Source of the DNA: Branchiostoma floridae
Taxonomy: Eukaryota > Chordata > Leptocardii > Amphioxiformes > Branchiostomatidae
Direction: 5' to 3'
Assembly: GCF_000003815.2 (NCBI RefSeq)
Contig: NC_049988.1
Span: forward strand, 14,639,982 to 14,703,981
Length of the DNA: 64,000 nt
In this document: positions 17,801 to 58,771 of the stretch, one piece after another
How positions within the stretch are numbered: position 1 is the first letter of the stretch
Layout: each line of letters opens with the position of its first letter
Translations under genes and position numbers: made by a program
The notes under the pieces: model-generated
The model's database searches: none
Told to the model about the DNA's origin: nothing
Seen by the model: only the letters and a program-made list of their open reading frames with translations

Positions 17801-20239
17801 GTTTGACACGCTAATATCAGTCTGGTGTAATAGATTCCAGCGTTGTGTCCTCTCCAAACTCCGGAATTTGTTGTGTTCTCGTTATGATCAGTGTGTGTAA
17901 AACACAGAGATTACCACTTCTGTGTGGATGCCATCCATTGGACGACCGCTAGGTGGTACGATCTTTTCAGACTGCATTCTGCCGTGTTCTAGATTTGCCA
18001 TGCACACGGGACATGTGTCTTTAACAGTAGGTTGTAGATTCATCTCAATGTGATGATGGCTTTCTTTCCACTTTCTCATGTGGCACAAAAGAGTCAAACA
18101 GCAGCAATAGTTCAAAGATTGTGTAGATTCAAGCTCTTCTCTGTATGACTCCTTTTGATAATGTCCGCAACATTCCATTGTTACCGCTTGTACAAGTTTA
18201 GCATGTTTTGTCTTTGAAGTGGAAAACAACATACCAAGCTAGAGAAAGAGTTTCTTATCAATGTGAACATAAAAGAAAGGTTTACCAGTTGTCTTGTTGT
18301 AGTTGTTTCTTCACACACTTGGTAGTGTGCTGTGACATTTTAAACTGGCTATAGAACTTATATAGATATATGTGCCTTAAACAGGGCATCAAATTCATCT
18401 TTTTGAAATAGAAGATTTAGTAAAGGTTCCTCTTGTAAATCATAATAGTCAAAGAGAATGGTTCAAACATTCTGTCCATTTGGATTCCTCTCTTCGAATT
18501 CTCTATCGACAATTCCCAAGCCATGCCAATGTTAATCAGTTACATACATGTACATAATATTAGCACAACATTTCCAAAGTTGGGTACATGTAACAGAACC
18601 TATGGTCAATCAAGCCTCGTCTCACAGTGGTACAAATATGTCAAGAAGAAACAGTGGATCACATCTAAAGATGTGCAACCTTGCCTTGAGGTGATGTCTC
18701 TTCTCCTGTTTGTGATGTGACATATTCTGAGAGGACTCTCAAACATATATGGTAGAGAATATATACGTACCATTGAATGTCCCATACATTAAATGATACC
18801 ATGAAAGGCATGATATGTACATTATATACAGGTTTGTCATCATCTATGCTAGAGTTCTCCTCAACGGACCATACAAAGTACCAAATGTGATACATGTGAT
18901 ATATATGTGATATATATTGACAATAGTGGTTCTACCAAAGACTGCAAAGCGCTAGCATAATCTCTAGTAGACTACATACTAGGGCTAAGTTGATGTTGCA
19001 CAAGTTACCAAACATTATGTAACGTAGTCAATTATTCTTGAATAGTAAAGCTATTACATTATAAAAAACCAACTTGCCGTTGGTAAAGTGCAGCAACATC
19101 GTGTTTCATCATGTACAATGACTGGTACCACAACTACATGTATGGATTCGCTACTGTCCTAGAATAGACATTGTTGCTATAACTAGCAATTTCTTTTACT
19201 TTTCAATTACAAAATGCACACACCTGAATATGTGTCAGATAATCTAATGTGATCTTAACATAAACGAAGAAAATGATGACAAAGTAACAAACACAAACAC
19301 ACACACACACACACACACACACATTTGGAATAACTTATAAAGAGGTGTTTGTGTTCAGAACGCAAACACCTCTTTTTCAAAAGTAGCTGAAACAAACTTT
19401 TTGTATAATCAACACCTCCAGAATAAGACAGACGTTTTCATATGAGCGTCGATTTAGGTCGTATTCTTTGAAGTGTACGTAAATTCATCAATTTCATTTT
19501 TTTATCTTGATAGATCTTCGTCTTCCAAGACATTGATAATGAAAGTGAAACCAATCTTTCTCGTAATGTATATGTCAGCTTTTTCTTTTTTTACTAAATT
19601 GTCTATAAATCAAATTTCACAAAGACTGGCTTGAACTGTAAGTTCCAACACAAAAGAATTACGATTGATAATAAACCATTTTGCCATTTTAAAAGTGTGT
19701 TATGTTTGCACAAAATTTTGTTTGCAACCTTTTTTTTTCAAAAGTCACCAAATTGTGTTTGACTCCAACCAGGAGATACGTTCCCCCATTTTGCTGATTT
19801 CTGACGTATGGCAACAGAACTTAATTTTTATTTCCAAATTTCTTTATTGATATTCCAGACCTATGAATTTTTATTGCTTTTCATTTTTCTCCAACAAAAG
19901 ATGCCATCTTTGTTAGTTATATGCTACTTCGTCTTGAGATAAGAGCACGAAGTAGAAAAGGCGATTGGTTAGTTTGGAACAATCAATATTTTATAACAAA
20001 TCTCCAAATAGTGTGGTTTTGAAATGACGAGCTTTCTGCAGTAGATTTAGTTGCGAGCTTGTATAAAAGCATGCTCGCATTTAAATTATATATTGTACAT
20101 GAAGGTTCGTTTTTGGGATCGCTTGTTTTTTTTTTAAACTAAAACAATGAAAAATCTCAAGAGTCTGTTACGAACAACTGAAAAAAGAATTTGAAAATAA
20201 GAGAACCGTTTTTATTTGTAAATTCTTAGCTATTCAGTA
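14896..20239. other. Gene-poor region with scattered repeats
   Basis: I see no supported gene here. It contains a run of 17 C at 17190-17206, a CA microsatellite at 19292-19322, and a perfect 14-bp palindrome GTTGCCATGGCAAC at 16744-16757 that matches the palindromic RFX (X-box) consensus. Reading frames of 60-114 codons are scattered with no recognisable domain or splice structure. Confidence 0.6.
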
Positions 20240-21830
20240 GCCATAAATTGAATATTGAAACAGGCAGATATTACAATGTAGCCCCTGACCAAAGGTTCTG
20301 CCCTTTCTGTCCAAAGCATATTGAAGATGAATTTCACTTTTTAATGGAATGTTCTAAATACACTATTTTACGTAATGAGCTATTCACATTTCTAGAATCT
20401 ATTACAGCAGATTTCAAGAACCTCGATGCTAAAGACAGATTTGTATATATCTTTAGATGCCACAACTCCCATAATGCAAAGTTAGGCAAATATATCAAAG
20501 ACTGCTTTGTTATTAGAAAGAATAATGAAAGCCATGATTAGCCCAACTCGATTGTAACATTATATCTTGTTTTAGCCCTTTTTGCTATGTTAATAAGGAT
20601 GTTAAGTCTTATTCTATACACCTATTTTGTACTTTGTGCAATAGTTGTTGCCATACATTGTACCATGTACAAATGTCGTGCAATAAAGTTCTATGCTATT
20701 CTCAAATCACCGCCGAAACAACAAGACGGTTTCTTTGATGGCAAAAATAACACCCAGCTAAGGAAATTGTCCTCATTTTTCAGTAGCTCATTTGTAAACA
20801 TTACCAAATGTAAGCATCTACATATTGTCTTTCATGTTTAGATTGCTAAGCCAAGCTTTTTTATATCATTTTGAAAAAAAAGAAGCATTTTATTCGGAAA
20901 ATGACAGATTCAATTCAGGGCGATGTGTGGCGAATTTCTTAAGCGAACCATTGGGCTGAGTACCTTATGGTTTTTTCACAGGTTTGTTATATTTTTTTGC
21001 CGTCGTATATTACTTTAAATATCAACACAACAGCAACACAAACCATAGTCCCTATTTTTTGTGATACTGATTAAATTGTATTGTCATCAGTTTCAGCTTT
21101 TCAAATTAAGGTAAGATTTTCACAACGCACCAGATTTTCTTGATTTCTGAAGAAAGCTACTGGTTTGCACTTCGTCATTGATATCCAAGCACCAAGACCA
21201 ACGAATTTTCATTGTTTTCTTTCCACAAGATGTTTAACTGAAAAGCCCTAAGCCATCTTTATGAACTATATGTCATGAGCATGTAATATTTAATCGCCCC
21301 CTTATTTTTGATTGCTGATTTTTTGCCTTGTATTCCAATGGATTTATTTGGAACAGTATCAAATTTTTATCACAAATTCTCAAGTTGTGTGATTTTTTTA
21401 GATAACAATCTTTCCTATAGTGCTTTTAATTGCGAACTTATATTGATATAAATGCATGCTTTAATGCAAATAGATATGCATAATAGGTATGCATAAGTAC
21501 ATGTAGCTGTGTTTGTGGGCCTCTTGGACTTTGTTCAAACCTGAAATCCCTACAAAAGATAACGTCACAAACAGCCACAGGAGGACTTTAAAAATGTGAA
21601 TGCCGCTGTGATATGAAAATTCATATTCCTGCTGACGCAGTAGTAACATCAATTATTTAATCACCAGCGAAATACGGCAACTATAAAGAATATTCCCAAT
21701 TGCCCCCATTTTTCAGTCGCTCATTTGTAAACATCACCAATTATTGTACACACCGACAGAAAAGTGTTTTCTCGCCTTTCATCTTTAGATTGCTAGACCA
21801 GGCTCTTGATAAGTAGAATAAAAAGAAATC
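19730..21830. repeat. Diverged tandem duplication
   Basis: Two similar blocks occur in the same order. One is 19730-20110 plus 20700-20870; the other is 21110-21480 plus 21655-21830. Shared landmarks are TTGCGA(G/A)CTT, TTTTTCAGT(A/C)GCTCATTTG and TTTAGATTGCTA. The first block is interrupted by the reverse-transcriptase remnant at 20240-20705, so that insertion may be younger than the duplication. Neither block shows coding potential. Confidence 0.55.
20240..20705 (+). mobile_element. Non-LTR retrotransposon 3' fragment (C-terminal ORF2 remnant)
   Basis: The frame at about 20248-20541 encodes the C-terminal segment found after the reverse transcriptase in several LINE clades, with a zinc-knuckle-like CPFC..H.....C pattern (RFCPFCPKHIEDEFHFLMEC). 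The reading ends at a stop. It is followed by a short 3' tail with GCAATAAAGTTC. The endonuclease and RT core are missing, so it is a dead 5'-truncated copy. The same tail occurs at 10085-10148. Confidence 0.8.
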
Positions 21831-22696
21831 GTGCCGCTATTTTGAAAAAACTAATTGTCAAACTGGTGGTCGACAATGTACACTTTTTTCAAAGCTACTA
21901 CCGTAAGCTACGGAACTAGAAAATGACAACTTTCTGTTGGAAATAAAGCCAATTCCTACACTCCCTTCTCATTGATAAGTACTATCATTTAAGGACGGGT
22001 CGTAGCTGTTTGTCTCAGGGGAGTTTGCGGTACATCATTCGAAGTCCCTCTAAAGTCATCCTGGCTGTGTGTTTCTCCTTTTGGCCACAGCAAGTAAATT
22101 TTATGGATGACATCCTCTGCAGACTACAAAAATAGTGCGATAGGGCGGAAAGAAACAAGATGGGTGAAAAAAACAAGATGGCTACATTTTCAAAAATAGG
22201 CACCATAAAGTTGTGATGACTGTTGTAAAAAGAATTAAAGGGATAAAACATGGTATCAGAGCCAACAAGGCATTCATTCCTGTATTTAAGACGTGTACTG
22301 GTGTGGTAAAAGTGACACTAGTGTGGTAGACTGGCATCACCAACAAAGTTGGTAGCCACACTCATAGCTTCCATACTGGTGTCACTTTTACAACTATCCA
22401 ACAAGTTTCATTTCTACAACTACAGTCCTGAGTACCTCGCAAGTGGCAATTTCAAGTACAATTATTAGGCTACAACACTATATTTGCTCATTTTGGTACT
22501 TTATCCGTCATGTTGACCATCCCCGCAGAAGAAAAAAAATCTTTCTTTTTTTCTGAAATCGGGCGAAAACTAATGCGCGCGCTGATGTCATCCATAAAAT
22601 TTACTTGCTGTGGCCTTTGTTGCAACCTGATTAGTGCAACCTTCGATTCTATGCGGAGTATATCATGCAAAATCGCACGTTCAGAGCCAGAACAAT
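20871..22696. other. Intergenic DNA downstream of the LRR receptor
   Basis: No gene is supported. A 32-bp perfect inverted repeat pairs 22081-22112 with 22586-22617, with weaker similarity outside it, suggesting an old inverted-repeat element of roughly 600 bp. Part of this span is probably the 3' UTR of the receptor gene on the minus strand. Confidence 0.5.
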
Positions 22697-25600
22697 TTAG
22701 TTATAGCAGTTTTGGTCAGACATGTTGGAATTTTCCGTGTTAGTGTTTTCGTACCTACTACGCTGCTGGTAGGCAGAGGACTGGGTGGCGCCCGGGTCAG
22801 GTAGAATAGAAGGGCGTTGGTAGCAGTTTTGGTCGGACATGTTGGTATTTTCGGCGCTAGTGTTTTCGTAACTACTACGCTGCTGGTAGGCAGAGGACTG
22901 AATAGTGCCCGGGTCGGATAGAGTCGAAGGGTGCTGATAGCAGTTTTGGTCGGACATGTTAGAATTTTCCGTGCTAGTATTTTCGTAGCTACTACGCTGC
23001 TGGTAGAAAGAGGACTGGATAGCACCAGGGTCAGGTAGAATAGAAGGGTGTTGGTAGCAGTTTTGGTCGGACATGTTAGAATTTTCCGTGCTAACATTTT
23101 CGTAGCTACTACGCTGCTGGTAGAAAGAGGACTGGATAGCACCAGGGTCAGGTAGAATAGAAGGGTGTTGGTAGCAGTTTTGGTCGGACATGTTAGAATT
23201 TTCCGTGCTAACATTTTCGTACCTACTACGCTGCTGGTAGGCAGAGGACTGGGTGGCGCCCGGGTCAGGGAGAATAGAAGGGCGTTGGTAGCAGTTTTGG
23301 TCGGACATGTTAGAATTTTCCGTGCTAGTATTTTCGTAGCTACTACGCTGCTGGTAGGCAGAGGACTGGGTAGCGACCGGGTCGGAGAGCGTCAAAGGGT
23401 GTTGATAGCAGTTTTGGTCGGACACGTTAGAATTTTCCGTGCTAGTATTTTCGTAGCTACTACGCTGCTGGTAGAAAGAGGACTGGATAGCACCAGGGTC
23501 AGGTAGAATAGAAGGGTGTTGGTAGCAGTTTTGGTCGGACATGTTAGAATTTTCCGTGCTAACATTTTCGTAGCTACTATGCTGTTGGTAGGCAGAGGAC
23601 TGGGTGGCGCCCGGGTCAGGGAGAATAGAAGGGTGTTGATAGCAGTTTTGGTCGGACACGTTAGAATTTTCCGTGCTAGTATTTTCGTAGCTACTACGCT
23701 GCTGGTAGAAAGAGGACTGGATAGCACCAGGGTCAGGTAGAATAGAAGAGTGTTGTTGGTAGCAGTTTTGGTCGGACATGTTGGAATTTTCTGCGTTAGT
23801 GTTTTCGTAACTACTACGCTCTTCGTACGCTGTATTCAGCGCTCCCTGTCCGTAAGGGACAGCATCCGAAGACCCAGACGAATCTGTATCGCGCAAACTG
23901 TCATGGTCTTCAAGACGGCCCTCGGCGTATGGACTGATCTCCGATCCATCCAAACTGTCGTGGTCATCAAAACGACCCTCAGCGTAAGGACTGATGACTG
24001 ACCCGTCCAAACTGTCATGACTGTCGAGGGGCCAGTTAGAGCATGCAGTGACCGCACGGACACCGTGGGATTGCTGTGCGTTATCCTGTCTAACGGTGGG
24101 ACAGAGCTTAACCCTCAAACACCTGAAACACTTACAAACTACCTTCCTAACCAGCAACAAACCAGCAATAGCTGCAACGGAAATGTACCACACGGCATTG
24201 TTGTCTCTTTCGACACTCATGCTCGTGCTAATCATCAGTGACGGCTCTGTTGTTTGTCGTGTTGTGGTATGATGTTGTGTTATTACCAGTGGGAGCACTG
24301 TTGTAGCGGGTTGTTGTGTCGTGTGAGAATGCGTCAGGTGTGTGTTGTTTGGCACCTCAAAGCTGGTTGTGTAGGACCCACTCTCAGAAGAAGCAGTGCA
24401 AAGTGTGTTCCTGAACGCCAAAGGCCCCGTACCCTCAAGCCAAAGTTTGAAGCTGGACTTACCCAAGTAGTTAGAACAAACCTTCCATTTCTGGGGGTCC
24501 CTGATAGCAAGATTCTTCTTTTTACATTTTGTCCACCCCTCACCCCTTAAGTAGGTCCCTACTGTAACAGTTAAGTTGCCTATTGTCAGATTGGCGTGTG
24601 TCGTCGTGTTTGTGTTGTACGTTATGTTCATCGAGTATTCCGACCCGTCGGCAAAGGCCCAGGATACCCGGGGCATGTCCTCCCAGTACACGTTACCAAC
24701 GGCTTCGTATTCTTGGGACTCGTGATTTTGCTCGACGTTTACAATCTCCACAAACGGTGCCGGGCAGGGCAGGGCGCTGACATTAACCTGTACAGGAGAC
24801 TTTTCAGTCAGGGACCAGGCGGGACACAATGTTGATATGAAAATTCCTGAATGCCAAGGGTGTCGCCCTGTCACTTTCCAGCGCCTCCACAGATGCCCAT
24901 ACAGCCCAGCGTTCGCACACGTACAGCGCAGGGGATTGTATGGTATCCGAATATCCCACCCGGCTAAGTCTTCCCTCCCTGGATACGCAGCGGCTATGGC
25001 ATTTCCCTTCAGATTCACTTTGCCTAGTTTTGCCGGTTTGAACCAAAGACCTGACAGAAAAGTTAGCTTGTTGCCCGCCAAGTTTAGAACAACCAATCGC
25101 TGATTTGAGTGGAACGCGCCATCTGCAATCCAAGAGATTTCATTGTACTCCAAGTGCAAGTTGTGCATGTTACCAAGCTCAGCAAACATGCCTACGCTGA
25201 CTGACTGGAGCTTGTTTTCAACGATATAGACATGCCGTACAGACAGAGCTCCCTGCAGTACCCCAGGCGCTATGTACCAGATAGAATTTGCACTTACGTC
25301 CAGCCAGTCCAGCTGTAGTCCACGCAGCATGCCGGGTGCCATCGTCAGGATCTGGTTGTCCACGAGATAGAGGAACCGCAGCAGCGGCAAGCCGTCAAAG
25401 GCACCAGCCTACCATGTAAAATTCTTGTTGTTAGGTAGACCATTTTGAGGACTATAATTTAGCAAATGAAAATGTTCAAGCCTAGCTAACCAGGTGACTC
25501 GTGTGGGGTTTGACGAATGTGATGATAATAAATGTCAGCAAATCCAACAATGTTGCTGTAAATGCTGTTCACGAATTCATGACATGTAGATTTGCTTGCA

Positions 25601-26650
25601 ACACATGTATTTAATTTCAATATAAGTGACTGACGTGTATACTGAAAAACAGTGCAATAAAACCCAATATAAAGCGTATCGCTGGACACCGAACAAGGTC
25701 TCATTATTATTCATCATTACTTGTTTACATGCACAAAATACGCCTTCATACATGAAAGAAACAGGACATGAAATTAATAAAAAATGATTTATCAAAGAAA
25801 AATGTGCAGGAGAACAAGCCTACAAGGCTTATGCTAGCCCCCTCCTTCAAACTTCACAAATATTAATCATAATACATTGTACTAATGAACTTATGATTCA
25901 ATCAACAAAATTAATCATCAGAAACAAATAAATAACAACACGAATGTAGATTTCTTTTCAAACTTTTCATCATTTAAAATTCGGGTTGCAATACCAGTTG
26001 AATGCATTTCTACATACGTATCGTAATCTTACCTCTATACATGTCATGTTGTTCTCTATTAGGACGAGTTCCTTGACGCCCTCCATCCCCTCAAACGTGC
26101 CGCTTCTCAGGGTCTCAAGGTTGTTCTGCCAGATGACCAGGGTCTTCACCTGTGGAAGCTTAGCAAGAGCCCCTACCTCTATGGTCGTTATGTTACAGTT
26201 GACAAACCATAGTTTACAGTCACTACCGCATGGCAGCTTTGAGACAGCGGTGGTGTCACCTGAAGTCAGAGTACCGACATTATGATCCACCATGACAAGT
26301 ACAGTGGTGTCCAGTAGGGAGGGTCTCAAAGTGACACTCAGGACTTCACCAGTGACAGAGCTACTTGACACACTTCTGTTACCTGCACAGTCGTAGCAAA
26401 CCATGGAGGTTGGATACAAATAGATGTTATCAAAAGGACCTTGGTAACTATCAAAAGAGGATGGCTTCCACCTGGACTGATACTTGCCAATGTCATACCG
26501 GTACTTTGATTCGCCATTACGGCTGTCCCCAACACTACATCTCAGCGGTGATACATTCTGACAGTGTTGCCAGTCCCCTGCCTCTACACACGGCACTACC
26601 AGACGCACAGCCAACACAAGGTACAACCTCAGCACCCACTTTGCAGCCAT
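22697..26650 (-). CDS. Leucine-rich-repeat type I membrane receptor with tandem tyrosine-motif cytoplasmic tail
   Basis: Two exons, 26650-26033 and 25408-22697, join in phase 0 across a GT-AG intron to give 1109 residues. The ATG at 26650 is chosen because a hydrophobic signal peptide follows (MAAKWVLRLYLVLAVRLVVP). The ectodomain has about eight leucine-rich repeats, split by the intron, then a cysteine-containing C-terminal cap (PLRCTCAN) and a Ser/Thr/Asn-rich stalk with many N-glycosylation sites. One membrane segment follows (AVWYISVAAIAGLLLV, near 24150-24200), then basic and cysteine residues. The tail has two copies of a DHDSLDGSEISPYAEGR-like unit and then nine full and one partial copy of a 39-residue repeat. 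Each repeat has Y-x-x-R/H and Y-E-N-T/V, and most have Y-Q-H/R-P. No kinase, TIR or death domain is present. Signalling by tyrosine phosphorylation is inferred. Confidence 0.88.
22700..23830 (-). repeat. Coding minisatellite, 117-bp unit, nine full and one partial copy
   Basis: The unit is 117 bp (39 codons); the first copy has one extra codon, and the last stops after 25 codons just before TAA. Copies differ at few sites and in recurring variant combinations (AYQQ/FYQQ, YENT/YENV, GAIQ/GATQ), which points to recent expansion or homogenisation by unequal exchange. All indels keep the frame. The antisense strand is also open over long stretches, but that follows from the repeat composition. 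Confidence 0.95.
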
Positions 26651-36777: not shown

Positions 36778-39700
36778 ATGAAGGAGATCGTAGGAATCTG
36801 GGTGACTTGGAACCTGAACATCTGGGACCGCCCCGAAGACTTCCTCAAGAAACGCCTGACGAAAAACCCGACGTATCCTTTCAGGGAGGTGTCGCCAAAC
36901 AGTGAGTCTGTCTTCACTCGTGTGTTCTCTTACATAATATTATATACATAAACATTGCAACAGCGAATCGGGGGCTTTTTAGGGCCGGGTCAAATACGTC
37001 GTTAGCCTGTGTACCTTCCTGGTAGTAGTTCGCTCCTTATAATGTTTGCTTCTGCTACAGAGAGCGACTGTATATGGTGTATAATAAATGTCAGAGCTAG
37101 AAGCGACTGTATATATCGTATATGTAACGCCGGATTGAACTACTTTCCGGATGGTACCCAGGCTAATACTAGTACGTCGAACGATTGTCACACGATCGCA
37201 AAGTGGAGGTATTGTTGGGGTAGTCATGCATGTGTCCTAGATGTCACATACGTTGTCGTACGATTTTGTCGCACAATGCCTTTGCAAGGCTAAATCTATG
37301 ACAGAATTGACATATCTCCAGACAGATATTGCTGTGATAACGTTATATGATAATATCATAAGTTTCGGAAGGGGTTTAGCCGGCAGAGGAGTTCCATTGC
37401 CAACAGCGTATGAAACTCCTCTGCCGTCATTCCGAAGCTTATGCTATTTTATGACACAGCAAGATCTGTCAGGAGATTAAGAATCGACTACTTTGAAGAA
37501 TCTACAACATACTTTCCCTCCCAACGCTGCTGAATTTCGCACCACACACTGTGCTAACGGCGCGATCACATTCGTTGTAGGTCCTCGTACGATTTAGATA
37601 AGACTTTCCGAGTAGGCTAGGCTATGACAGAACCAACAACTAGGACAGAAAACAGATTTTTGCGTGACAAAGTACGGACCTACAGTATTAAAGTCCAGTC
37701 CAGTAGCTGTCCTCCTCTCACACAGTCTTATGATATAGATATAGCTAGAGTCAAATTGTCTGTATAGATTCCTCATCTTGAACTACATATCCTTATTTTC
37801 TGTTGTTTCCAAAGACTTTGCGGTTGAAATCAGAGACTGGCGTCTTCAGTTCGGCTACCTGACGGCCATCTTCGGTCTTGTGACCGCTTGCTCGTGGTAT
37901 TTCATCTTCGGGTACTTTGACGTAAGTGCTACGTATACTACAGTTTGTAAGATTTCACATAAACTTCACGATACTTATTGACACCGACAGATTGCAATGC
38001 CTTTGTCTCAGTTGCCAAACACTGCAGATGTAACATGTATTTATTCTATGCGCCTTCATAATATTTGTTGCAACATAGATGCGAATGTTATTATCCCATT
38101 CACGAGCATAGATTAACCCAAAATATAATACTAGTAGTCAGTGTAAAATCTACCATACAATGGAAAAATGTTACGTCGAACTTTGAATCATGCTTAAAAT
38201 ACCATTTGTCTGTCAGATGATTTTGTGTTAACACTGTATCGCAGATGTAAATAGATGAATGATAAGAAATGCTTTGGATTTTCAGGAGTACTTTTTTCTG
38301 GTGACGGTGAGTGCCCTGGTCACGTGCATGTACCTGATCGGGTGTTTCCGCCAGCCTCGGAAACTCGTGCTCAACTCCGAGTCGCTGGAGTACCAGTGGT
38401 ACAAGGGCGAGGACCTGGTGTACCGCGGGCACTACCACAACGTGTACCTACGGCTGGCTGGACAGAGTACAGGTACTAATGATAGTGCGTTATACTAGTA
38501 GTATTCACACATGGAAACGGTGGTAGGGTTTTAATAGGTATGGCCGTACCGCGGGCACTACCACAACGTGTGCCTACGGCTGGCTGGACAGAGTACAGGT
38601 ACCATCAATACTGTGTGACACTAGTACTATTTAACCCATGTTCCCCCACTTCATACATCTAAGTAATATAGACAAATTTGTATTCCTTATGAATCTAGAC
38701 AAACCTTTACTTATAAAGCATATCTGTTCTTACATTTTCAATATCACAAAGAAACGAGAAGAAGCCGAATGTACGCAGTAGAATACGATTCTTGAGTAGT
38801 GTAGATTCTTTGTATCATTGTATCATGTTGTATCATTTGTTGTGACCTGTACTGAACCCAGCGGGTATGTATGTACAATAAAGGTCTTCATTCATTCATT
38901 TATGAATGGAAACCGTGGTAGGATTGTAGGTACACCGTGGTCACTACCACAGCGTGCATCTACAGTTGGCTGGACAGAGTACAAGTACTAGCGATAGTGT
39001 TATATCGTTTATCATAGGAAACCGTGGTACCAACATCTGGTATAGATATGACTGTATGTACCTACAGGTACTATAAACACTGCGTTACACTAGTACTATT
39101 CATAAATGTTTCATAAATGGAAACGTTGGTAGGATTGTAGGTATGGCTGTACCGCGGCTACTACCACAGCGTGTACCTACGGTTGGGTGGACAGAGTACA
39201 GGTACAAACGATAGTGTTGCATCATTTATTACAGGACACAGTGGTACAAATATCCAGTATAGATATGACTGTATGTACCACGGTCTCTAGTACAACGTGT
39301 ACCTACTACGGCTGGACAGAGTACACGTACTATCGATAGTGTTACATTACGTATTACCGGAAACCCTGGTACAAACATCCGGTATCATATGACTGTACAA
39401 AATATTAAATGTTCATGTACCGCGGCCACTACCACAACGTGTACCTAAAAAAAAAAAAAAGATGTTCTCGAAATTTCGAGAACATCTTTTTAAAACGATA
39501 CGCCCTCCCAAATTCAGCCATTTCAGCTTCGGGTCTCGACACTCTTGCATTCTCATTTCACGACTTCGTATGGGCACCTGCAGCTTGAATTATAGTCTTT
39601 TCACGCGGGGTCTTGTGTCAAGCCCAGCCTGCAGCTGCGGGTGTCCATTCGAAACTATTTCACACTACCTTTTGCACTGCCCTACCTATAATTACCAGCG

Positions 39701-41388
39701 CTCAGTTCTCTTCGGCAAACTCTCTGGGTTACTTGTACATATACTTGATTTCCACAGTCTTGCAAATAATGCCAAAGAAATGTTGATTTTACAAGGTAGT
39801 TCTTTCTGCTCCTTCAATGTCAATTGCAGAATTATAGAAGCAACACATGTGTTCATTGCAACAACAAATCGTTTTTAGATTCAAGTATAATTCTTTGTTT
39901 TTGTTTTCTACTCCAGTAAGGGAGATCGACTCACGCACACTGTTCATACATATGTAATTATCTATTTATTATTGTCCTGTATAATTTATTATTTTCAATT
40001 CTTGTATAAGTGGCGGCGTTAATATAAGTTGAATGTAACTTGAGTCCGCCGTCACTTAGTCCTCGTCCGTTTATTTGTATTCTTACACGTATTTCAATAA
40101 AGAAAAAAAAACGTGTACCTACGGCTAGCTTGACAGAGTACGGGTACTATCGATATACACGTGTTACATCATTTATAAAAAGGAAACCATGGTATTATTT
40201 ACGTGAAACAGTGGTACAAACATCCGGTATAGATACGATTGTATGTACCACGGTCTCTAGTACAACGCGTACCTACGGTTGGCTGGACAGAGTACAGGTA
40301 CTACCGACAGTGCGACATTACCTATTCACAGGGAACCGTGGTACAAACATACGGTATATATATGACTGTATGTACCACGGCCATTACCACAGCCTGTATC
40401 TACGGTTGGTGGGTACTAGTATCCCGTATAAATATTATTGCACCGCGCTCAGTCTATTCAACATGATGTGCACACTGCACATCACGATTACAGCCAAGAT
40501 GGTTGCTATATGCGGCTACAGATCTCCTGTTACACAGTAGTATACGCTCCAGTATAATCTGTGTCCCTTTGTTTCAGGCAGCGCTATCTATTACAAGCTG
40601 GTCATTCGCGGCTACAAAATTGAAGGACAGGATTTGTGCAGGGGAACGAAGAATAGAGAGGTTAGTGCGAGTAAATAGGACGTGTAGTTTCTAGTACATG
40701 TCATCTGTAATCTATGCTTGAACTTTTATAATATTTTTCATTACTGTTTCAGAAACTGATCAAGCTTGCGAGACGTCTTGCGGCAAAACTTAACCTCAAT
40801 TTCTTCGACTACGAGGATTCATCAAGTAGTCATATCCTTTTGTTATTCTTTTCATCTATTTGGGGTAACGTTTGGTTTATCTAGATATCGAAGAGAAACA
40901 TTGTAGATGTTTGAAAGAAGCGCTAGTGGGCACCGGTCCAAATTTTTTTACCAACTCCAACTTAGCTTACTTTTACGTGTACTGGATTGTGTAGGGTATT
41001 ATGTGTCGTTTGCAAACACATGTGCATCAGAGAGCCTTGTTGATATATATTTTCAATTACTTTCAATACAACCTTAAGAGATGACAAGGAAAGTGTGCAA
41101 AAGAAATTTAATAGTGGGATAGATTTAGCCATAGGTAACGCAATAGTTTTCACACAAAAAAGTATCACAAAGTACTGTTTGTAATAGAAACTGCTTAGAA
41201 GTTACTTTATCATATATATCTCCTTTTATTCACCCTTAACTGCATGATACATGCTATTCGTCACTACTGTCCACCTGCGACCGACAGAAAGACAAGCAGT
41301 ACGGCACGGTCTACTGGAAGCGCCGCCTAACGAGCCCACTTGGTATCACATCCTTCTGACCAAGCCACAACACTTGCCAGTATTTTAA
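36778..41388 (+). CDS. TMEM249: TMEM249-like two-pass membrane protein (CatSper-associated family)
   Basis: Six exons join with consistent phases: 36778-36901, 37815-37921, 38286-38472, 40578-40660, 40753-40825, 41288-41388, giving 224 residues, close to vertebrate TMEM249. After a short N-terminus with a PTYPF motif come two membrane helices (YLTAIFGLVTACSWYFIF and YFFLVTVSALVTCMYLIGCF). A cytoplasmic domain follows with SLEYQWYKGEDLVYRGHYHN, YYKLVIRGYKIEG and LARRLAAKLNLNFFDYEDSS. I recognise these from TMEM249, found in the mammalian sperm CatSper calcium-channel complex; identification is from memory and less certain than for its neighbours. The last intron uses an A|GTAGTC donor; the final exon is the least certain. 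A possible AATAAA signal is at 41481-41486. Intron 3 is expanded by tandem copies of the exon 3 end and by retroelement DNA. Confidence 0.72.
37321..37470. mobile_element. Small MITE-like inverted repeat in TMEM249 intron 1
   Basis: About 150 bp. Arms start GACAGATATTGCTGTG and end CACAGCAAGATCTGTC, with an inner pair TTCGGAAGG..GGCAGAGGAGTT and AACTCCTCTGCC..TTCCGAA. It is non-coding. Confidence 0.6.
38760..38898 (+). mobile_element. Probable LINE 3' tail
   Basis: It ends ACAATAAAGGTCTTCATTC followed by ATTC repeats, the same style of tail as other non-LTR remnants in the window but a different sequence. It is non-coding and separates the second and third exon-edge copies in TMEM249 intron 3. 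The 5' limit is a guess. Confidence 0.45.
39447..40110 (+). mobile_element. 5'-truncated non-LTR retrotransposon with target-site duplication
   Basis: A 664-bp insertion is flanked by the direct repeat ACGTGTACCT at 39437-39446 and 40111-40120. It ends with AATAAAGAAAAAAAA, a LINE-like tail. The frame 39462-39878 encodes a C-terminal retrotransposon segment with the usual pattern (SRLRMGTCSLNYSLF, CSCGCPFETISHYLLHCPTY). The 5' end is odd: fourteen A then a 36-bp perfect palindrome at 39456-39491. The insertion landed inside one of the exon-edge copies, so it is younger than that amplification. Confidence 0.85.
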
Positions 41389-51375: not shown

Positions 51376-52038
51376 ACAAAGTACTAAGTACATACCCCGC
51401 CAGGAAACGCAACCTTCTGACCGAAGGTAATAAAAACTACAACTCATTTGTTTAAAAGGATTGAAAATACGTACACAACAGATTATACAAACGGGAGAAC
51501 AATAACCAATTAGTTCGCAAAAAAATTATTTCTTTTTCTAAGAGGCAATTAGAGGGGTGTACTAACCTATTTTAACTACATTCATACCTTGTCTATAATG
51601 GTGCCCGAGGATTGGTCAATTGGACCACCAATTCCACAATGAAAAGTTAACCACCATAGAGAAAGGATAAATGTGGAATGACATTTGTCTCAATTCTGCC
51701 AGTTGGAGTGACGATAGTCGTGATCATCAAGTGAAATATAGTTTGGTCGTTTATTTGGACCATCAGATTCATAGCCGACACGGAGCATGTACAAATCCAT
51801 GGCCCCAACAATTCCCCCGCAATACACAGCTAAAACCCCACTGACTGATATCTTTCAGAGGGGAACCACGATCCACCATACTGCATACTTGGGCAGTATT
51901 GTCCTATTCACAAACCCGGATAAACTTACGAGACGGTTCTCCAGATCTGATTTAGTTTTAAGCCTATCATTGCCATCAATAGTCCACAGGTGGATAGCCC
52001 TTTTACTCATTGTTCCCCTACCTATTGCAGAGGTTACT

Positions 52039-53104
52039 ATGGCAACAGTGGGCATCCACCCCGAGAACGTCAGTGTGGGCGAGGAAGGCAAGACTGCAAG
52101 GAAACCTACAACATGTGAGGAGTGCAGCAGGCAGTTTGCATATCCTTCTGCTCTGGAGATCCATATGCGCACTCACACAGGAGAGAAGCCCTATATGTGT
52201 GGAGAGTGCAGCAAACGGTTCAGTCAACTGAATGTTCTAAAGACCCACATGCGCACTCATACAGGGGAGACGCCCTTTATGTGTGGAGAGTGCAGCAAGC
52301 GGTTCAGTCAGCTAGGAAGTCTGAAGAGACACATGCGTGTCCACACGGGGGAGAAACCCTATAACTGCGATGTGTGCAGCAAGCAGTTCAAACATCAGCC
52401 GGAATTGAAGGCCCACATGTATAAGCACACAGGTGAAACGCCATTCACGTGTGAGGAGTGCAGCAAAAAGTTTGGAGATTCTCGTGATTTGCAGAGACAC
52501 ATGCGTACCCACACAGGCGAGAAACCCTTCATGTGTGGGGAGTGCGGCAAGCAGTTCAGACAGATGGGTCATCTCAAGAAACACATGCGGACACACACAG
52601 GGGAGAAACCCTATAAATGCGAGGAGTGCAGCGAGCAGTTTAGTCGGCTGGACAGTATGAAGAGACACGCATTGATGAAGCACACAGGAGAAAACCCTTT
52701 CACGTGTGAGAAGTGCAGCAGGCAGTTTGTTAGCACGTGGGGTTTAGAGCAACACATGCGAACTCACACGGGAGAAAAACCCTACAAGTGTGAAGAGTGC
52801 AGCAGACAATTCAGCAGGTTGGACAGTCTAAAGGAACACATGCGCACTCACACAGGGGAGAAGTCGTACAGTTGTGAAGAGTGCAACAGGCAGTTTGTGA
52901 ATCTGCGTATTCTGAAGATCCACATACGCACCCACACAGAAGCCCTACAAATGCGAGGAGTGCAACAAGGCGTTCAGTCAGTCGGGAAATTTAAAGGCAC
53001 ACCTCCGCACTCACACAGGAGAGAAACCCTACAGGTGCAAGGAGTGCGATAAATGTTTCGCCGCCATGAAGAGTCTAAAACTTCACGTGAAAAGTCACCT
53101 GTAA
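52039..53104 (+). CDS. C2H2 zinc-finger protein 1 with frameshift before the last two fingers
   Basis: The coding exon starts at the acceptor at 52031; the ATG at 52039 ([14 protein letters not shown]) is chosen because the paralogue at 57328 starts the same way (MATMRIHHDDVSAG). Upstream in-frame sequence is intronic. Ten consecutive C2H2 fingers follow with TGEKP-type linkers; finger 7 has an enlarged H-H spacing (RHALMKH). Near 52938-52943 about 5 bp of the linker after finger 10 are missing, shifting the frame, so the direct reading ends at 53052 while two more fingers (YKCEEC..., YRCKEC...) remain open in the next frame to TAA at 53102-53104. A poly(A) signal is at 53208-53213. Probable nuclear DNA-binding factor; no effector domain is seen. 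Confidence 0.85.
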
Positions 53105-53207
53105 GAACTCTTGTCAACAGAAAACAATTTTAGACCTCGACTGGACAGTTACACTCTATTTGGGTGGTATTGTGCATAAAGAAGACAACCGAAGACAGAA
53201 AGTAAAT

Positions 53208-53213
53208 AATAAA
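53208..53213 (+). promoter_or_regulatory. Poly(A) signal of zinc-finger gene 1
   Basis: AATAAA about 104 bp after the frame-corrected stop codon. Confidence 0.5.
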
Positions 53214-53954
53214 AGTATTTTAATGTTATTCATTAAGCTTGTAAGTAGCTAAGATAGACAAAAACAGTTTTGATGATTGATACTTACGTTGCCTAGCCTA
53301 ATTATCATCCCCAAGTTAACACGTGTTGCGGATATTTGATGCAAGGACTGATTTTGATACATATATATTTTCTAGAACATTACATGTTTGGAAATCTACA
53401 GTAATATGGTAATATGGCTTGCATTGCAGGGAGTCTTCTGTCTTTCTTAAGTAACGCGTGCGGTGTTGATATGTGACGATTTAAAACTCATACTTACATG
53501 ATAGATATGATTAGTTGTACATATGCCAAGGATAAAACATTGCCTTCGTGGTTTTCCCGAAGTGAGGGGGGAACGTTGTACTGTTCGTGCCAAGGATAAG
53601 GATAAAACTGCGTGGAATGAGTCATTCGCCTGTTTGATTACAGAGGCCCTGCTTTACAAATGGCTTAATTAATTGACTAGTATTATAACAGTTTAACTGT
53701 AGTAGTAGTAGTAGCTTTTGTTTCAGAGAATAAATTGTTACAACAAGGCACGTAAGTACGAAGTCATCTTTATGACCGGTCTTTACTGATTGTCATGTTT
53801 TAGCCTCCGGTGCTGTATTCGAACGGGGAGACGGGACAAAACTCCCTTCCACGGCAAACTCCCTTCCACAGCAAAATCCCTTTCCCGGCACAAGAGAACC
53901 TAGCCAACGTTGAAAATCGAGAACGCAATAGTTACATCTTATATCATCTAAAAT
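53214..53954. other. Intergenic DNA between the zinc-finger genes
   Basis: No gene is supported. Contains an AGT trinucleotide run near 53699-53713. A block at 53850-53930 (CTCCCTTCC, GTTGAAAATC) resembles 54600-54675 and may mark the ends of an older repeat that holds the LINE fragment between them. Confidence 0.45.
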
Positions 53955-54332
53955 CTACATAGTCTCTTCTCTCTTTTTGAAACTTGTGTGAACAAATTCA
54001 CAAATCTTTTCAAGTGCGTTGTATCTATTAGTGGTCATAATGTAGTTGAACATTTGCTCCTTAATTAAACACACATATTCATTATCTAGTTGTAGTGTAT
54101 TTATGAGAGATGTGCGCATCTCGGTGTATAGTGGGCATTCTAAAAGAAAATGTACTTCATTTTCTACACATCTATCATTGCAAAATGTACATATTCTATC
54201 ATTTGGAGGAGTCTTGCTGTGTCTACCAACTTCAATTTGTAGCGAATGGTCGCTAATTCTTAATACAGACAGAATGGCGTAATCGTAAGTTTTGTCAGGG
54301 AAATGTTTTAAGTAGGTGGTGAGAGTTAGACC
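53955..54332 (-). mobile_element. Non-LTR retrotransposon C-terminal ORF2 fragment
   Basis: On the minus strand an uninterrupted frame of about 125 codons ends at TAG (53957-53955). It carries the same post-RT module as 20248-20541: LRISDHSLQIEVGRH, then ICTFCNDRCVENEVHFLLEC with a CxxC...H....C pattern. It lacks a start and the RT core, so it is a dead fragment. Confidence 0.8.
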
Positions 54333-54338
54333 TTTTTA

Positions 54339-54475
54339 AGATTTCATTTGTGCACCGTCCATATCAACGTGATGTAACGACAATGTGATGCTCACTCTAA
54401 CTTCACTCTAAGTTACGGTGGACATAACATTTGTTATTACATCACGTTGTAATTGACGGTGCACACACAAAATCT
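54339..54475. mobile_element. MITE-like inverted repeat
   Basis: Imperfect arms (AGATTT...TGTGCACCGTC and GACGGTGCACACACAAAATCT), with inner ACGTGATGTAA pairs. About 137 bp; non-coding; directly beside the LINE fragment. Confidence 0.6.
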
Positions 54476-55011
54476 TCCACAAAAGGATTCCGAGGGTCCA
54501 TGTTTGAGTTCATATTTCGCATAATCTTGAGCGAAATAACATTTAATACTAGTATGGCTGAAATCTTTTAAATTGAACATTGATTTGGGGAATTATACCG
54601 CAACTCAATTCTCCGGCCAACTCCCTTCCCAGGCGTAGAGAACGTTTTTAGCCCATGTTGAAAATCCCCAAGCAAAACTACCGAGGTCACGGGTAAATTT
54701 TACGCCGCTCCGTTGACCCAGATCTAACCTCCATGAGTTCTTTGGGTCGTGTCGCTGTGCCTTGTGCTTTGAGTTATTGTGAAAATCTAGTATTCTCCGT
54801 TCAACAATGCCAGTCACAGTGTCTAATAATGATAAACTATAATCCCACACGAAAATGCTCAATTTTGCGAATCATTCTCACACGAAATGCTGTTTTTCTA
54901 AATAAAAATACAAACTAGGGGGGCAGGCCCAAACTTAAGTCACTTATTTCTGAGCACAAGAGCTATCTAACACCCCAAAATTGGGACCATATCTTGTTCA
55001 GAACACGAGAT

Positions 55012-55160
55012 AGCAAAACCGGAAGTTGCGCTGCAATACCAAAGAGAGTTGCTAGGGGGCCCAAAATCTAATCACTTCTAGCTTTTATCACACCTCACCA
55101 ACACGCCAAGTATAAAACTAATCCATCCAGCCGTTCTTGAGTTATCTTGTTGACAGACAG
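55012..55160 (+). repeat. Dispersed repeat (GCAGTACCAA family), copy 3
   Basis: AAACCGGAAGTTGCGCTGCA, AGGGGGCCCAAAATCTAATC and ATCCATCCAGCCGTTCTTGA are the clearest family blocks. It ends in a CAGACAGACACACAC simple run. Non-coding. Confidence 0.6.
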
Positions 55161-55448
55161 ACACACACACACACAAACGCTACTGAAAATATAACCTCCA
55201 TGACATTTCATGGAGGGAAAAACCGATTATTTCCATGCATGGCTTCGTATTTGATTCATTCAACTAAGGGGTCTTGCGGAGACCAAAGACATTATAACAT
55301 CCTTGAACAAAGCACTGTAACAAGTCTGACCCCTGACAAACCTCGAGCTCACTTTTCCTTATCTGAGCAACATCCACGTATGCTAATAACTAAGACGTGA
55401 TTGGCAGGATTACATCATGTGAGTGCCTCTGATTGGTAACGACAACAA

Positions 55449-55584
55449 TGACGTCACAAAGGATAATTGGCAGCCCGCGTTGGTTTGATGTCATTGCAGG
55501 TGAAGCGAAGGGCGAAGACGCAGCTCAAAGAGTTCCTGATCATACAGAAAAATCGCAAGAAGATCTGAACATCTACATCTGCAG
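55449..55584 (+). promoter_or_regulatory. CRE-containing promoter and non-coding leader exon of zinc-finger gene 2
   Basis: TGACGTCA at 55449-55456 and donor CATCTGCAG|GTATT at 55584. The block duplicates 50058-50212 closely (GGATAATTGGCA.CCCGCGT, GAAGACGCAGCTC). Confidence 0.55.
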
Positions 55585-57109
55585 GTATTTGGTTTTAGCC
55601 TATTCTATTTTGATACCCGTTTTCATGCTTGTTATAAGTGAACATGTACCTAACAGTGATACTGTAAACAGAGAACACAACATCTTATAGTAGTATCAAT
55701 CGCTACATCGTGGACACGCAATATTACTATTTTGTTACTGGTACGCTGGTTCACACCGACGGACTCGTGGGTGATTTTGTACCCGTGCGTTTGCTGTTAC
55801 GTTAGGCACAACCCGCCGTACGTGCAAATGCGTGCCGTCTACGTGCCAAAACGTGGGCAATCTTTTGATAATTCCGTTAGTGGTAAGTACCGCCTCCGTA
55901 CGAACTCGTAGGGAATCCGACAGATTTTGGAGCACGCAGACACGCCGTAGAACTTTACGTGCAGGCAAAACTTTGTGTGTCATCGGGCTGCGGATTCGCC
56001 AACGTACGTGCCAGTACGGGCGACGCGCCTGCCATGTACAGCTTGAACGATTTCAGAAATACGTGGCGGACGTGGCCTCCCAAAAAGACGGCGGGTTGTG
56101 CCCTTAGCTTTAAGCACCCCATCCTCGGCGTTTTACTAGCCGTTTTTTTTTTTCATACTCCCTCTTCAGTGGGTTTAATCTTTGCTTTATCGTCATGTTT
56201 CTTAGATTATAACGTTTTGTTCGTTTTCTTGTTTGGTCGGTGATGTTCCCTGATGGACCCGATTATAGCCTTTCTCTCTACATCCGTCTGTTTGGGCAAT
56301 ATCCGTACAGTCATATGTGTGCTGCTTGTATAGCGTCGGTTTTCTGATCGGAAGTTGTACAGTATTTCACCCCACCGCAGTTCACTAAGCATTGTTGTTG
56401 TTTCAAATTGCTCAGTACGCCAGTCATTGTTTCCTTTAAATTTGCATTCCTTTTCAAATCTTAACGGCCACAGGCGGAAGTTGTGAATGTTGTCTCTAAC
56501 CCCAGATGTGTGACCCTTTGTCCTACCCGATACCCATTGTTATCGGCCATGTAGTCTGATCTGAATGTCTAATTGTGTCAACTTGTAAGTTGTGAAATAT
56601 CCTCTAAAAACAAGGACTCACTTGTAAAATATACATAAATCAACTTAAGTTCATCATCCTGATACCTTCGCCAAAATAATAACCTTCTCGCTATGGCTCA
56701 GTTGTTGCACTTGAAAATTCGGCCCTAACCCCATGTAGTACAGGCCGACTGTAACGTTATTTAGTGGCCAAGATTATGAAGTAATAGGCAGAGAGAACCA
56801 AACTCAGAATCGCTGGTTTAGATATTGTAATTCTTATTTTGTAAGAGGGATATACCAATTCATGCCAACTGCATTCAAGTACATTGTTTATGAAGGTGAC
56901 CAGGTCCATCGGGTGACTAATAGTAGTCATAATCATAACTATGATGTAACTAATCTCCAAGCAGATCCTACGGTCATACAAGGTAGTATCAAAAGCTGGA
57001 TGAGGAGTGAAGCCGGTCTAGGAGTATATTTCGCCAGCTTTTGCTACCGTAGAATCTGATTGGAGATTAGAAGAAATCTATAGTTTGGACTGTGTGAACT
57101 GAGTGTGTG

Positions 57110-57250
57110 TGTACAAGATAGATCATTAAGTCAAGAACGACTGGGTGGATTGGTTTCATACTTGATGTGTTGGAAATGATTTTGGCCCCCCTTGCGGCTT
57201 TCCTTCTCACTGCAACATAAGTCCCGGTTTTGCTATCTCGTGTCCGGATT
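57110..57250 (-). repeat. Dispersed repeat (GCAGTACCAA family), copy 4, reversed
   Basis: Minus-strand reading gives ACACGAGATAGCAAAACCGG, then AAGCCGCAAGGGGGG and CCAATCCACCCAGTCGTTCT, matching 54980-55160 in order. Lies just upstream of the coding exon of zinc-finger gene 2. Confidence 0.55.
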
Positions 57251-57327
57251 AAGCTATGGCCATGCGTTTCGGGTGTTAGATAACGCTTGTTTTACTTACC
57301 GTTTTCCTTCGTATTGCAGAAGTTACT

Positions 57328-58771
57328 ATGGCGACAATGAGAATCCACCATGATGACGTCAGCGCAGGTCAGAAAGGCAAGCCTGCAAGGAAACCTGCAA
57401 CGTGTGAGGAGTGCAGCAGGCAGTTTCGGAGCAATTATGATCTGAAGGTCCACATGCGCGCCCACACAGGGGAGAAACCATACAGTTGTATTGAATGTGA
57501 CAAGAAGTTCGTTAGGCCGGATCATCTTAAAAGTCATCTCCTAACTCACACAGGGGGGAAACCCTATACGTGTGAGGAATGCAGCGAACAGTTTCGTAAT
57601 TATTATTATCTGAAGATTCACAAGCGTACTCACACAGGGGAGAAACCTTCTGTCTACACGTGTGAGGAGTGCAACAAGCAGTTCAGCCAACTAAGTCATC
57701 TGAAAACCCACATGTACACTCACTCAGGGGAGAAGCCATACGTGTGTGGGGAGTGCGAAAAGCCGTTCAGTCAGCTGAGTTATCTTAAGAAACACATGCG
57801 AACACACACAGGGGAGAAACCCTACAGGTGTGAGGAGTGCAGCAGGCAGTTTGGAAGTCTTTCTGCTAGGAGGATCCACATGCGTACTCACACAGGGGAG
57901 AAACCATATATGTGTGGAGAGTGCAACAAGCAGTTCAGCCAACTGGGTCACTTGCAAAGTCATATGTGGACTCACACCGGTGAGAGACCGTACAGTTGTG
58001 AGGTGTGCAGCAGGCAATTTATTAGGCGTACCCTACACATGTAAAGAGTGCAGCAAGCAGTTTCGAAGCTATCAGTCTCTGACGATGCACATGTATACCC
58101 ACACAGGGGAGAAACCCTATACGTGTGAGGAGTGTAGCAAGCAGTTCAGTCATCTGTCTTATCTGCAAACCCACATGCGCACTCACACGGGGGAGAAACC
58201 ATACATGTGTGAGGAGTGCGGCAAGCAGGTCAGTTCACAAACTGTCCTGAAGAAACACATGTACACTCACACAGGGGAGAAGCCATACATGTGTGGAGAG
58301 TGCAGCAAGCAGTTCCGACACTTGGGCCAATTGAAGGGCCATATGCGTACGCACACAGGAGAGAAACCTTACAGATGTGAGAAGTGCAACAAGCGGTTCA
58401 CTGGGCCAGGTAATCTGAAGAAACACATGCGCACTCACACAGGGGAGAAACCTTACAGTTGTCAGGAGTGCAGCAAGCAGTTTAGCGATTCAAGCAACCT
58501 CAAAGCTCACGTGCGAACACACACAGGAGAGAAGCTCTACAGGTGTGAGGAGTGCAACAAGCAGTTCAGTAGGTTGGATACGCTGAAGGAACACCTGCGG
58601 ACTCACAGCCTGCAAGTGTGAGTGCAGCAGACAGTTCAATGCGACTAGACTTTTGAAGACTCGTATACATGCTAACACAAGTGAGAAACCGTACAAGTGG
58701 ACGATGAAGTGCAACAAGTGTTTGAACTTCGTGTGTAACTTTACGAGGCACTTAATGACGCACACAATGTA
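57328..58771 (+). pseudogene. C2H2 zinc-finger protein 2, array broken by two frame-shifting deletions
   Basis: The coding exon starts at the acceptor at 57320 with ATG at 57328. Seven intact C2H2 fingers and the start of an eighth (SCEVCSRQFI) are read to a stop at 58044. At about 58020-58027 some 40 bp (rest of finger 8 plus linker) are missing, and the next seven fingers continue in another frame to 58621. Near 58604-58612 a second linker deletion shifts the frame again; degenerate finger remnants (CKCECSRQF-like, and a last HLMTH before TAA) run to 58771. A full-length product would need both breaks repaired; as written only the seven-finger N-terminal protein is made. It could still be functional in that short form. 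It is the tandem paralogue of the gene at 52039, with the same promoter and leader. Confidence 0.75.

Follow-up and report, generated by a model that had tools for sequence, protein, structure and literature searches.

Why would a receptor carry ten copies of one tyrosine-rich unit in its cytoplasmic tail? The question is raised by an LRR receptor gene in a 64-kb window (the whole stretch of DNA that was analysed) of the Branchiostoma floridae genome. In our model the gene has two exons on the minus strand (26650-22697) and a product of 1,109 aa, which runs from a signal-peptide-like start through LRRs, a Cys-containing stalk and one membrane span into a 483-aa tail. LRRs, membrane span and repeat array share one open frame of 903 aa (25408-22697, minus strand).

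26033-26650, minus strand: exon 1 of the model, with the ATG, a hydrophobic signal-peptide-like N-terminus, an N-terminal region of about 110 residues and the first LRRs
25409-26032, minus strand: intron of the model, GT...AG, phase 0, 624 bp, after residue 206
22697-25408, minus strand: exon 2, with the rest of the LRRs, the stalk, the TM segment, the complete cytoplasmic tail and the stop codon TAA
24995-25408, minus strand: LRRs of exon 2, three LRR_8 stretches, the best at aa 80-138
24350-24930, minus strand: LRRCT-like start and conserved juxtamembrane ectodomain, boundaries approximate
24149-24196, minus strand: short TM segment AVWYISVAAIAGLLLV, hydropathy 1.84 over 19 residues, with RKVVCKCFRC directly after it
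23828-24022, minus strand: juxtamembrane tail, SPYAEG twice (57-bp repeat) and VPYGQG once
23708-23827, minus strand: unit 1 (40 aa), YEER, YENT, YQQH
23591-23707, minus strand: unit 2, YQQR, YENT, YQHP
23474-23590, minus strand: unit 3, YQQH, YENV, YQHP
23357-23473, minus strand: unit 4, YQQR, YENT, YQHP
23240-23356, minus strand: unit 5, YQQR, YENT, YQRP
23123-23239, minus strand: unit 6, YQQR, YENV, YQHP
23006-23122, minus strand: unit 7, YQQR, YENV, YQHP
22889-23005, minus strand: unit 8, YQQR, YENT, YQHP
22772-22888, minus strand: unit 9, YQQR, YENT, YQRP
22697-22771, minus strand: unit 10, partial (24 aa), YQQR, YENT, YN, stop

LRR_8 matches both exon 1 (E 2.8e-8, aa 166-205) and exon 2 (E 5.4e-19) in Pfam, and LRR proteins are found among the PDB matches of the exon 2 LRR region. 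Neither the N-terminal region of exon 1 nor the stalk (24310-24850) has a match in the Pfam scans, and an Ig-like domain guessed by eye in the stalk was dropped because Pfam gave it no support. All seven Cys columns of the juxtamembrane ectodomain are invariant across 16 genes of the family described below; single-sequence AlphaFold prediction of the exon 2 part of the ectodomain gave a mean pLDDT of 34. The membrane span lies at about residues 611-626, with cysteines directly on its C-terminal side. With signal peptide and membrane span both called from hydropathy alone, the protein fits a type-I LRR receptor. With E values up to 1 allowed, Pfam finds no TIR match in exon 2, so the gene is not classed as a Toll-like receptor, and the scans of the exons find no WSC domain.

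The surroundings of the gene hold several features of other kinds. Just 3' of the receptor stop codon lies an inverted repeat that resembles a foldback or MITE-type element; its two 32-bp arms (22083-22114 and 22584-22615) match perfectly and have 469 bases between them. On the plus strand are a rhodopsin-like GPCR in a single open frame (61411-62640; 7tm_1, E 2.8e-35), frames with C2H2 zinc-finger arrays (51775-58621; by Pfam for 51775-53049 and 57280-58041, by eye for the remainder) and two retroelement-like remnants, one with a weak zf-RVT match below cut-off (39393-39878; E 9.7e-5) and one recognized by eye that has no Pfam match (20230-20541).

TRF reports a 117-bp unit in 9.5 copies at 22704-23820 (89% matches, score 1696), and reading the frame gives ten tandem units at 23827-22697: unit 1 of 40 aa, units 2-9 of 39 aa, and unit 10 of 24 aa followed by the stop codon. 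At a lag of 39 the tail's self-match is 240, whereas the highest value in 40 shuffles is 6.2. Tyrosine is retained in all 30 unit positions (10 units × 3). YEN[TV] is present in 10/10 units, as YENT in seven and YENV in three (copies 3, 6 and 7), and YQHP or YQRP in 8/8 of copies 2-9, copy 1 having YQQH and copy 10 ending in YN and the stop codon. The first-pass annotation, made from the DNA letters, had described an LRR receptor whose tail carries many tyrosine motifs, nine full and one partial copy of a 39-residue repeat, YENT or YENV in every copy and YQHP or YQRP in copies 2-9; the domain matches and hydropathy bear out the receptor, as type-I, and TRF, unit reading and motif counts confirm the rest. 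It had passed over the third tyrosine that every unit keeps (YQQR in 8/10 units), three extra tyrosines between membrane and array (in the two SPYAEG and one VPYGQG motifs) and the 57-bp repeat at 23894-24019. Alternative long open frames through the array were rejected as the coding frame of the receptor because a single frame joins LRR and TM. A Pfam Adeno_PV match to the repeat (E 3.4e-6; 26.9 bits, cut-off 27) is taken as a low-complexity artefact.

Pairwise counts over the array units give pS 0.25 and pN 0.073 (pN/pS 0.29). The synonymous share of codon differences is 0.43, against a mean of 0.27 when the variable-site patterns were repositioned randomly over the unit, and was reached in 30 of 2000 such trials; a stop codon arose in 1719 of the 2000. 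The same shuffles gave no significance to the excess of third-position changes in the array (306/2000), to its number of invariant residues (344/2000) or to the invariance of all three Y columns (317/2000). Because the synonymous share is significant and the Y-column test is not, the array protein is constrained, yet the array by itself is no proof that the tyrosines matter. The copies are up to 99% identical, and unit counts are not independent because the units come from recent duplication.

A search with the tail array of the window's own genome (513,431,437 bases, 431 contigs) returned 20 matches: the window gene (L009), 18 LRR genes of like tail plan spread over nine contigs (L010-L027), and an unrelated low-complexity match with 35 stops that was dropped (L028). 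Judged by its tail, the window gene is no orphan but one of at least 19 genes, a lower bound set by the tail search alone. The family plan, shared by the window gene, comprises a conserved stalk, a TM segment, PYAEG and PYG motifs and a tail containing CYxxP; exact PYAEG occurs one to four times per tail across the 19 tails, and the PYG motif is present in 19/19. The arrays are built of one or both of two units, a 39-residue E unit and a 35-residue D unit (such as CYNSPALATDQERTLSSTYDQNDPREAAKGSRKAP). E units number 10 in L009, 6 in L010, 4 in L011, 2 in L012 and 1 in L013, D units number 1 to 8 in L012-L027, and tail length, as cut for motif counts, is 209 to 530 residues. A tree of stalk plus TM for 18 genes (L013 was omitted as too short in frame) places L009, L010 and L011 together against the rest with support of 100/100, L010 forming a long branch.

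The stretches surrounding four paralogues (L029 for L010, L030 for L011, L031 for L012 and L032 for L013) hold the N-terminal/LRR, stalk/TM and array parts in the order of the window gene. The tblastn match breaks at residue 206/207 in L030, at 206/205 in L032 and nearby in L031, the intron of the window gene lying after residue 206; in L029 it runs through the intron position with about 60 extra columns. L030 keeps one frame per exon and the matches in L031 are all in a single frame. L029 and L032 shift frame internally, so L010 and L013 could be pseudogenes, or the assembly could contain errors there. In L011, L020, L022 and L027 the tail match crosses one or two stops, and some of the 19 or more family genes may be broken.

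The Crk SH2 domain binds pYxxP (PMC2689226, PMC5043372) and that of Grb2 binds pYxNx (PMC10968029); one source of Crk-type clones was B. floridae (PMC5043372). YxxP occurs at least twice per tail in 19/19 tails, eight times in the window gene and 2 to 9 times in the 18 paralogues, whereas YxN is found in 5/19 and is missing from the other 14. In 300 within-tail shuffles of the window gene the mean YxxP count is 2.03 and none reaches eight. Over the family the YxxP count is reached by at most 10/300 shuffles in 12/19 tails and by 16 to 31/300 in four (L013, L021, L025 and L026), and it is weak in L021 (31/300), L022 (67/300), L024 (80/300) and L027 (61/300). YxN occurs ten times in the window gene, a number that 0/300 shuffles reach, and the tail counts as one with the Grb2-docking motif; YxN is clearly above shuffles solely in this gene and L010 (1/300) and is not exceptional in L011 (234/300), L012 (29/300) or L013 (179/300).

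In E units (n=23) Y1 is kept in 23/23, Y2 in 22/23 and Y3 in 23/23; N+2 after Y2 is kept in 21/23 while +3 varies (T 15, A 5, V 3), and P+3 after Y3 is kept in 20/23. L011 has CENT in one place and YEDT twice, which count against a strict YxN requirement. The D-unit model, with 69 matches, has the first Y in 62/62, P+3 in 63/68 and the second Y in 66/69, and with other seeds 64/64, 62/67 and 67/70, both match sets including some CYQHP units. By conservation the Y columns rank 1, 11 and 1 of 39 in E and 1 and 5 of 35 in the D unit. Across the 19 genes, the part of the tail present in single copy has 7/8 Y columns invariant against 37/119 other columns (Fisher P 0.0025), His columns matching Tyr in conservation (4/4 invariant) and E and S columns also being high (4/6 and 8/15 invariant); median dN/dS is 0.256 there (19 genes, 171 pairs) and 0.383 in the juxtamembrane ectodomain (16 genes, 120 pairs; L010, L013 and L024 left out for missing end markers), with genes and pairs in all these statistics not independent and open to gene conversion.

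These results alter the motif reading of the first-pass annotation. Its Grb2- and Crk-type assignment holds in so far as the residues expected to determine SH2 choice are mostly kept across paralogues, and has to be revised in that the family-wide motif is YxxP, not YxN. It had named loss of the motifs between species during repeat drift as evidence against itself; among paralogues, on which we ran this comparison in place of species, YEN is kept in 10/13 and YxxP in 12/13 units outside the window gene. It had proposed that the strength of the scaffold can change with copy number, and E-unit number does differ among the paralogues. The ITIM reading that it attached to the YENV copies found no such backing: the form [SILV]xYxx[ILV] matches three times in the window gene and nowhere in the 18 paralogue tails, and we reject it as a family trait.

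The gene layout, the arrays, the differences in unit number between paralogues and the conservation of the tyrosines and P+3, with N+2 in the window-gene subfamily, are what the sequences show. The tail most likely functions as a multivalent phosphotyrosine platform, and the best reading of its docking is Crk-type across the family with Grb2-type added in the window-gene subfamily. We give a probability of roughly 0.55 to multivalent phosphotyrosine docking as the role of the tyrosine-motif units, mostly tandem, that build the tails of the window gene and its family (at least 19 LRR receptor genes in all). The LRR ectodomain would meet a ligand or microbe and the receptors would cluster, whereupon a Src-family kinase could phosphorylate several unit tyrosines. 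The CYQ[HR]P sites, going by motif fit, would then load Crk-type SH2 adaptors and the YEN sites Grb2, so that many adaptors would be gathered per receptor, in a number set by array length.

An array of this kind could also be a coding minisatellite, grown and homogenised by unequal exchange and gene conversion, in which the tyrosine motifs are passengers without a signalling role. The near-identity of the copies and the non-significant within-array tests of tyrosine alone would fit, as would the frame changes in L010 and L013 and the tyrosine-free tail repeats of L034 and L042 in the survey below. Such an origin does not account for a dN/dS lower in the tail than in the juxtamembrane ectodomain, for Y columns more invariant than others over 19 genes, or for a Y column that is top or tied in 5/7 unit types, and we consider it unlikely. 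Signalling of the opposite sign would follow if the YENV copies acted as ITIMs recruiting SHP or SHIP phosphatases, as reported for the amphioxus receptor BbLcLRR, which inhibits T-cell activation in Jurkat cells through ITIM or ITIM-like tyrosines (PMC8211107). SxYxxV is indeed present in copies 3, 6 and 7, but these are just 3/10 units of a form with no match in the paralogue tails, and the +3 residue is T, A or V whereas N+2 is mostly kept; we judge this improbable.

Phosphorylation may have no part in the tail at all if the low-complexity chain is a spacer or self-associates. The wide range of paralogue tail lengths would suit that role; the high conservation of Y, P+3 and N+2, though not of those alone, makes it a poor candidate. 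That the window copy is silent or decaying is very unlikely: frame changes do occur in two paralogues close to it, L010 and L013, and its last unit is cut short, but no stop interrupts its 1,109 codons, its splice sites are GT-AG, and the units have a pN/pS of 0.29.

LRR tails elsewhere in the genome were read as a control. The survey set comprised the 20 best-scoring LRR_8 loci (L033-L052), for L037 with the neighbouring longer frame analysed, and eight hand-picked loci (L053-L060). By our judgement clear tandem tyrosine arrays are present in 10 of the best 20 (L033, L035, L036, L037, L039, L044, L046, L048, L049 and L052) and borderline in L038 and L040. The tails of L034 and L042 have repeats without tyrosine, no tail array was seen in L043, L045, L047 or L050, L051 has no TM at the cut-off used, and L041 is TLR-like, its TIR recognized by eye. 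All eight hand-picked loci have tyrosine arrays, having been chosen for long frames and dispersal and so biased to long tails; the lag score of L055 is spoiled by an N stretch. The open frame around an LRR_8 match at G000:C8:1690544 is listed with a length of 18,396 aa.

By eye the survey units look mutually unrelated (SGHDHQYEDIDKQHNQTGQGQSQ..., SQSIYGNENEEAMSAA, SESDTNVYENDDEVETA..., PNTYWPWEIPGEGTRNTPRRASLPLVTL and a YMKP...YEMP unit), although the SQSIYGNENEEAMSAA and SESDTNVYENDDEVETA units may be kin to each other, and the tails have motifs of their own (YxN, YED[IMV], YxxP and YWPW). Counting ties, the Y column is top-ranked in SIYGNE (22/22), in TYWPWEI (39/39) and, with just three units, in YEMP; it ranks 3 of 20 in NVYENDDE (Y in 24/26) and 15 of 38 in the QYED arrays (Y in just 54/64); over the seven unit types, whose models came from hand-chosen seeds that all contain Y, it is the most conserved column, alone or tied, in five. 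In L057 (C13:1608360-1611900) the tyrosine of some QYED units is replaced by H or N (HQHEDMD, HQNEDTD). Residue counts after tyrosine, which are descriptive and recount the same units many times, give N+2 in 42/61 for L049/L053/L059 (background 0.06) and in 17/49 for L035/L037/L039/L040 (0.07), I, L, V or M at +3 in 76/118 for the QYED group (0.12) and P+3 in 5/9 for L044 (0.15). Seven other LRR tails have N+2 in 3/23 and P+3 in 0/23, and neither is enriched in the YWPW group (L052, L054, L056 and L060), for which we know of no SH2 class that fits. YED[IMV] is similar to the motif preferred by Src-family SH2 domains. The 46-residue tail unit of L044 (C5:6831020-6838020) combines a YMKP-like motif and YEMP with a proline-rich stretch, APPRKPLPE, which by eye is a possible SH3 site.

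Tails of like build in the same genome suggest that this animal amplifies adaptor docking sites inside its receptors. A wider, tentative proposal, which we think may well be wrong, is that amphioxus LRR receptors have repeatedly and independently evolved tails that each array one class of SH2 ligand (YxxP/YEN in the window family, YxN in L049/L053/L059, YED[IMV] in the QYED group, YEMP in L044), adaptor wiring being set by the amplified motif and gain by copy number. That the unrelated arrays arose independently is inferred from how dissimilar their units are and not from a tree, and the YWPW group would fall outside the scheme and need another explanation. If these readings hold, the outputs of many receptors in a basal chordate are set by short docking motifs amplified in tandem, a quick route by which new recognition domains could be wired to shared adaptors with gain tuned by copy number. 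The family would also offer a natural length series for SH2 multivalency (1, 2, 4, 6 and 10 E units; 1 to 8 D units).

A partial search of the open-access literature found no description of tandem tyrosine tails in such LRR receptors, and the closest known systems each share part of the design. LAT is a membrane-anchored multi-YxN platform for Grb2; the window protein resembles it in having many YxN at the membrane, and also has cysteines directly after the TM segment, but LAT is not known to have an LRR ectodomain or tandem units. p130Cas/BCAR1 is a cytosolic scaffold with SH3 and FAT-like domains and no known YEN units, and so differs from the window protein both in this respect and in being no receptor. 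The likeness lies in its substrate domain, where many YxxP sites (15) in one chain are thought to recruit Crk SH2 multivalently (PMC2689226, PMC5043372), intracellular proteins of 100 kDa being described as rarely having three or more YxxP (PMC2689226). Choanoflagellates have proteins that, like the window protein, are transmembrane with several cytosolic YxxP repeats, such as PTSG_05573, and for one such protein two phosphopeptides were bound by a Crk-type SH2 domain; in the accessible part of that report the ectodomains are different (for example DUF5011) and YxN arrays are not mentioned (PMC5043372).

The other two systems are amphioxus LRR receptors. BbLcLRR of Branchiostoma belcheri is likewise an LRR receptor with tail tyrosines, which Lck phosphorylates in human cell lines; it differs in its 699 aa, its three key tyrosines (DDYATV, HDYSEV and HDYDDP) and its WSC domain, and no tandem array is described in the available part of the account (PMC8211107). 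None of its tyrosine motifs occurs in the tail of the window gene. FrLRR, also of B. belcheri, is an LRR receptor linked to Grb2, through which it works in phagocytosis, but unlike the window protein it has no cytoplasmic tail, and its authors postulate an unknown mediator, for example a co-receptor (PMC10199209). By analogy, and with FrLRR coming from another species, an LRR receptor with a YxN array could be that Grb2 co-receptor; if so, the arrays described here offer a candidate answer to how the tail-less FrLRR reaches Grb2.
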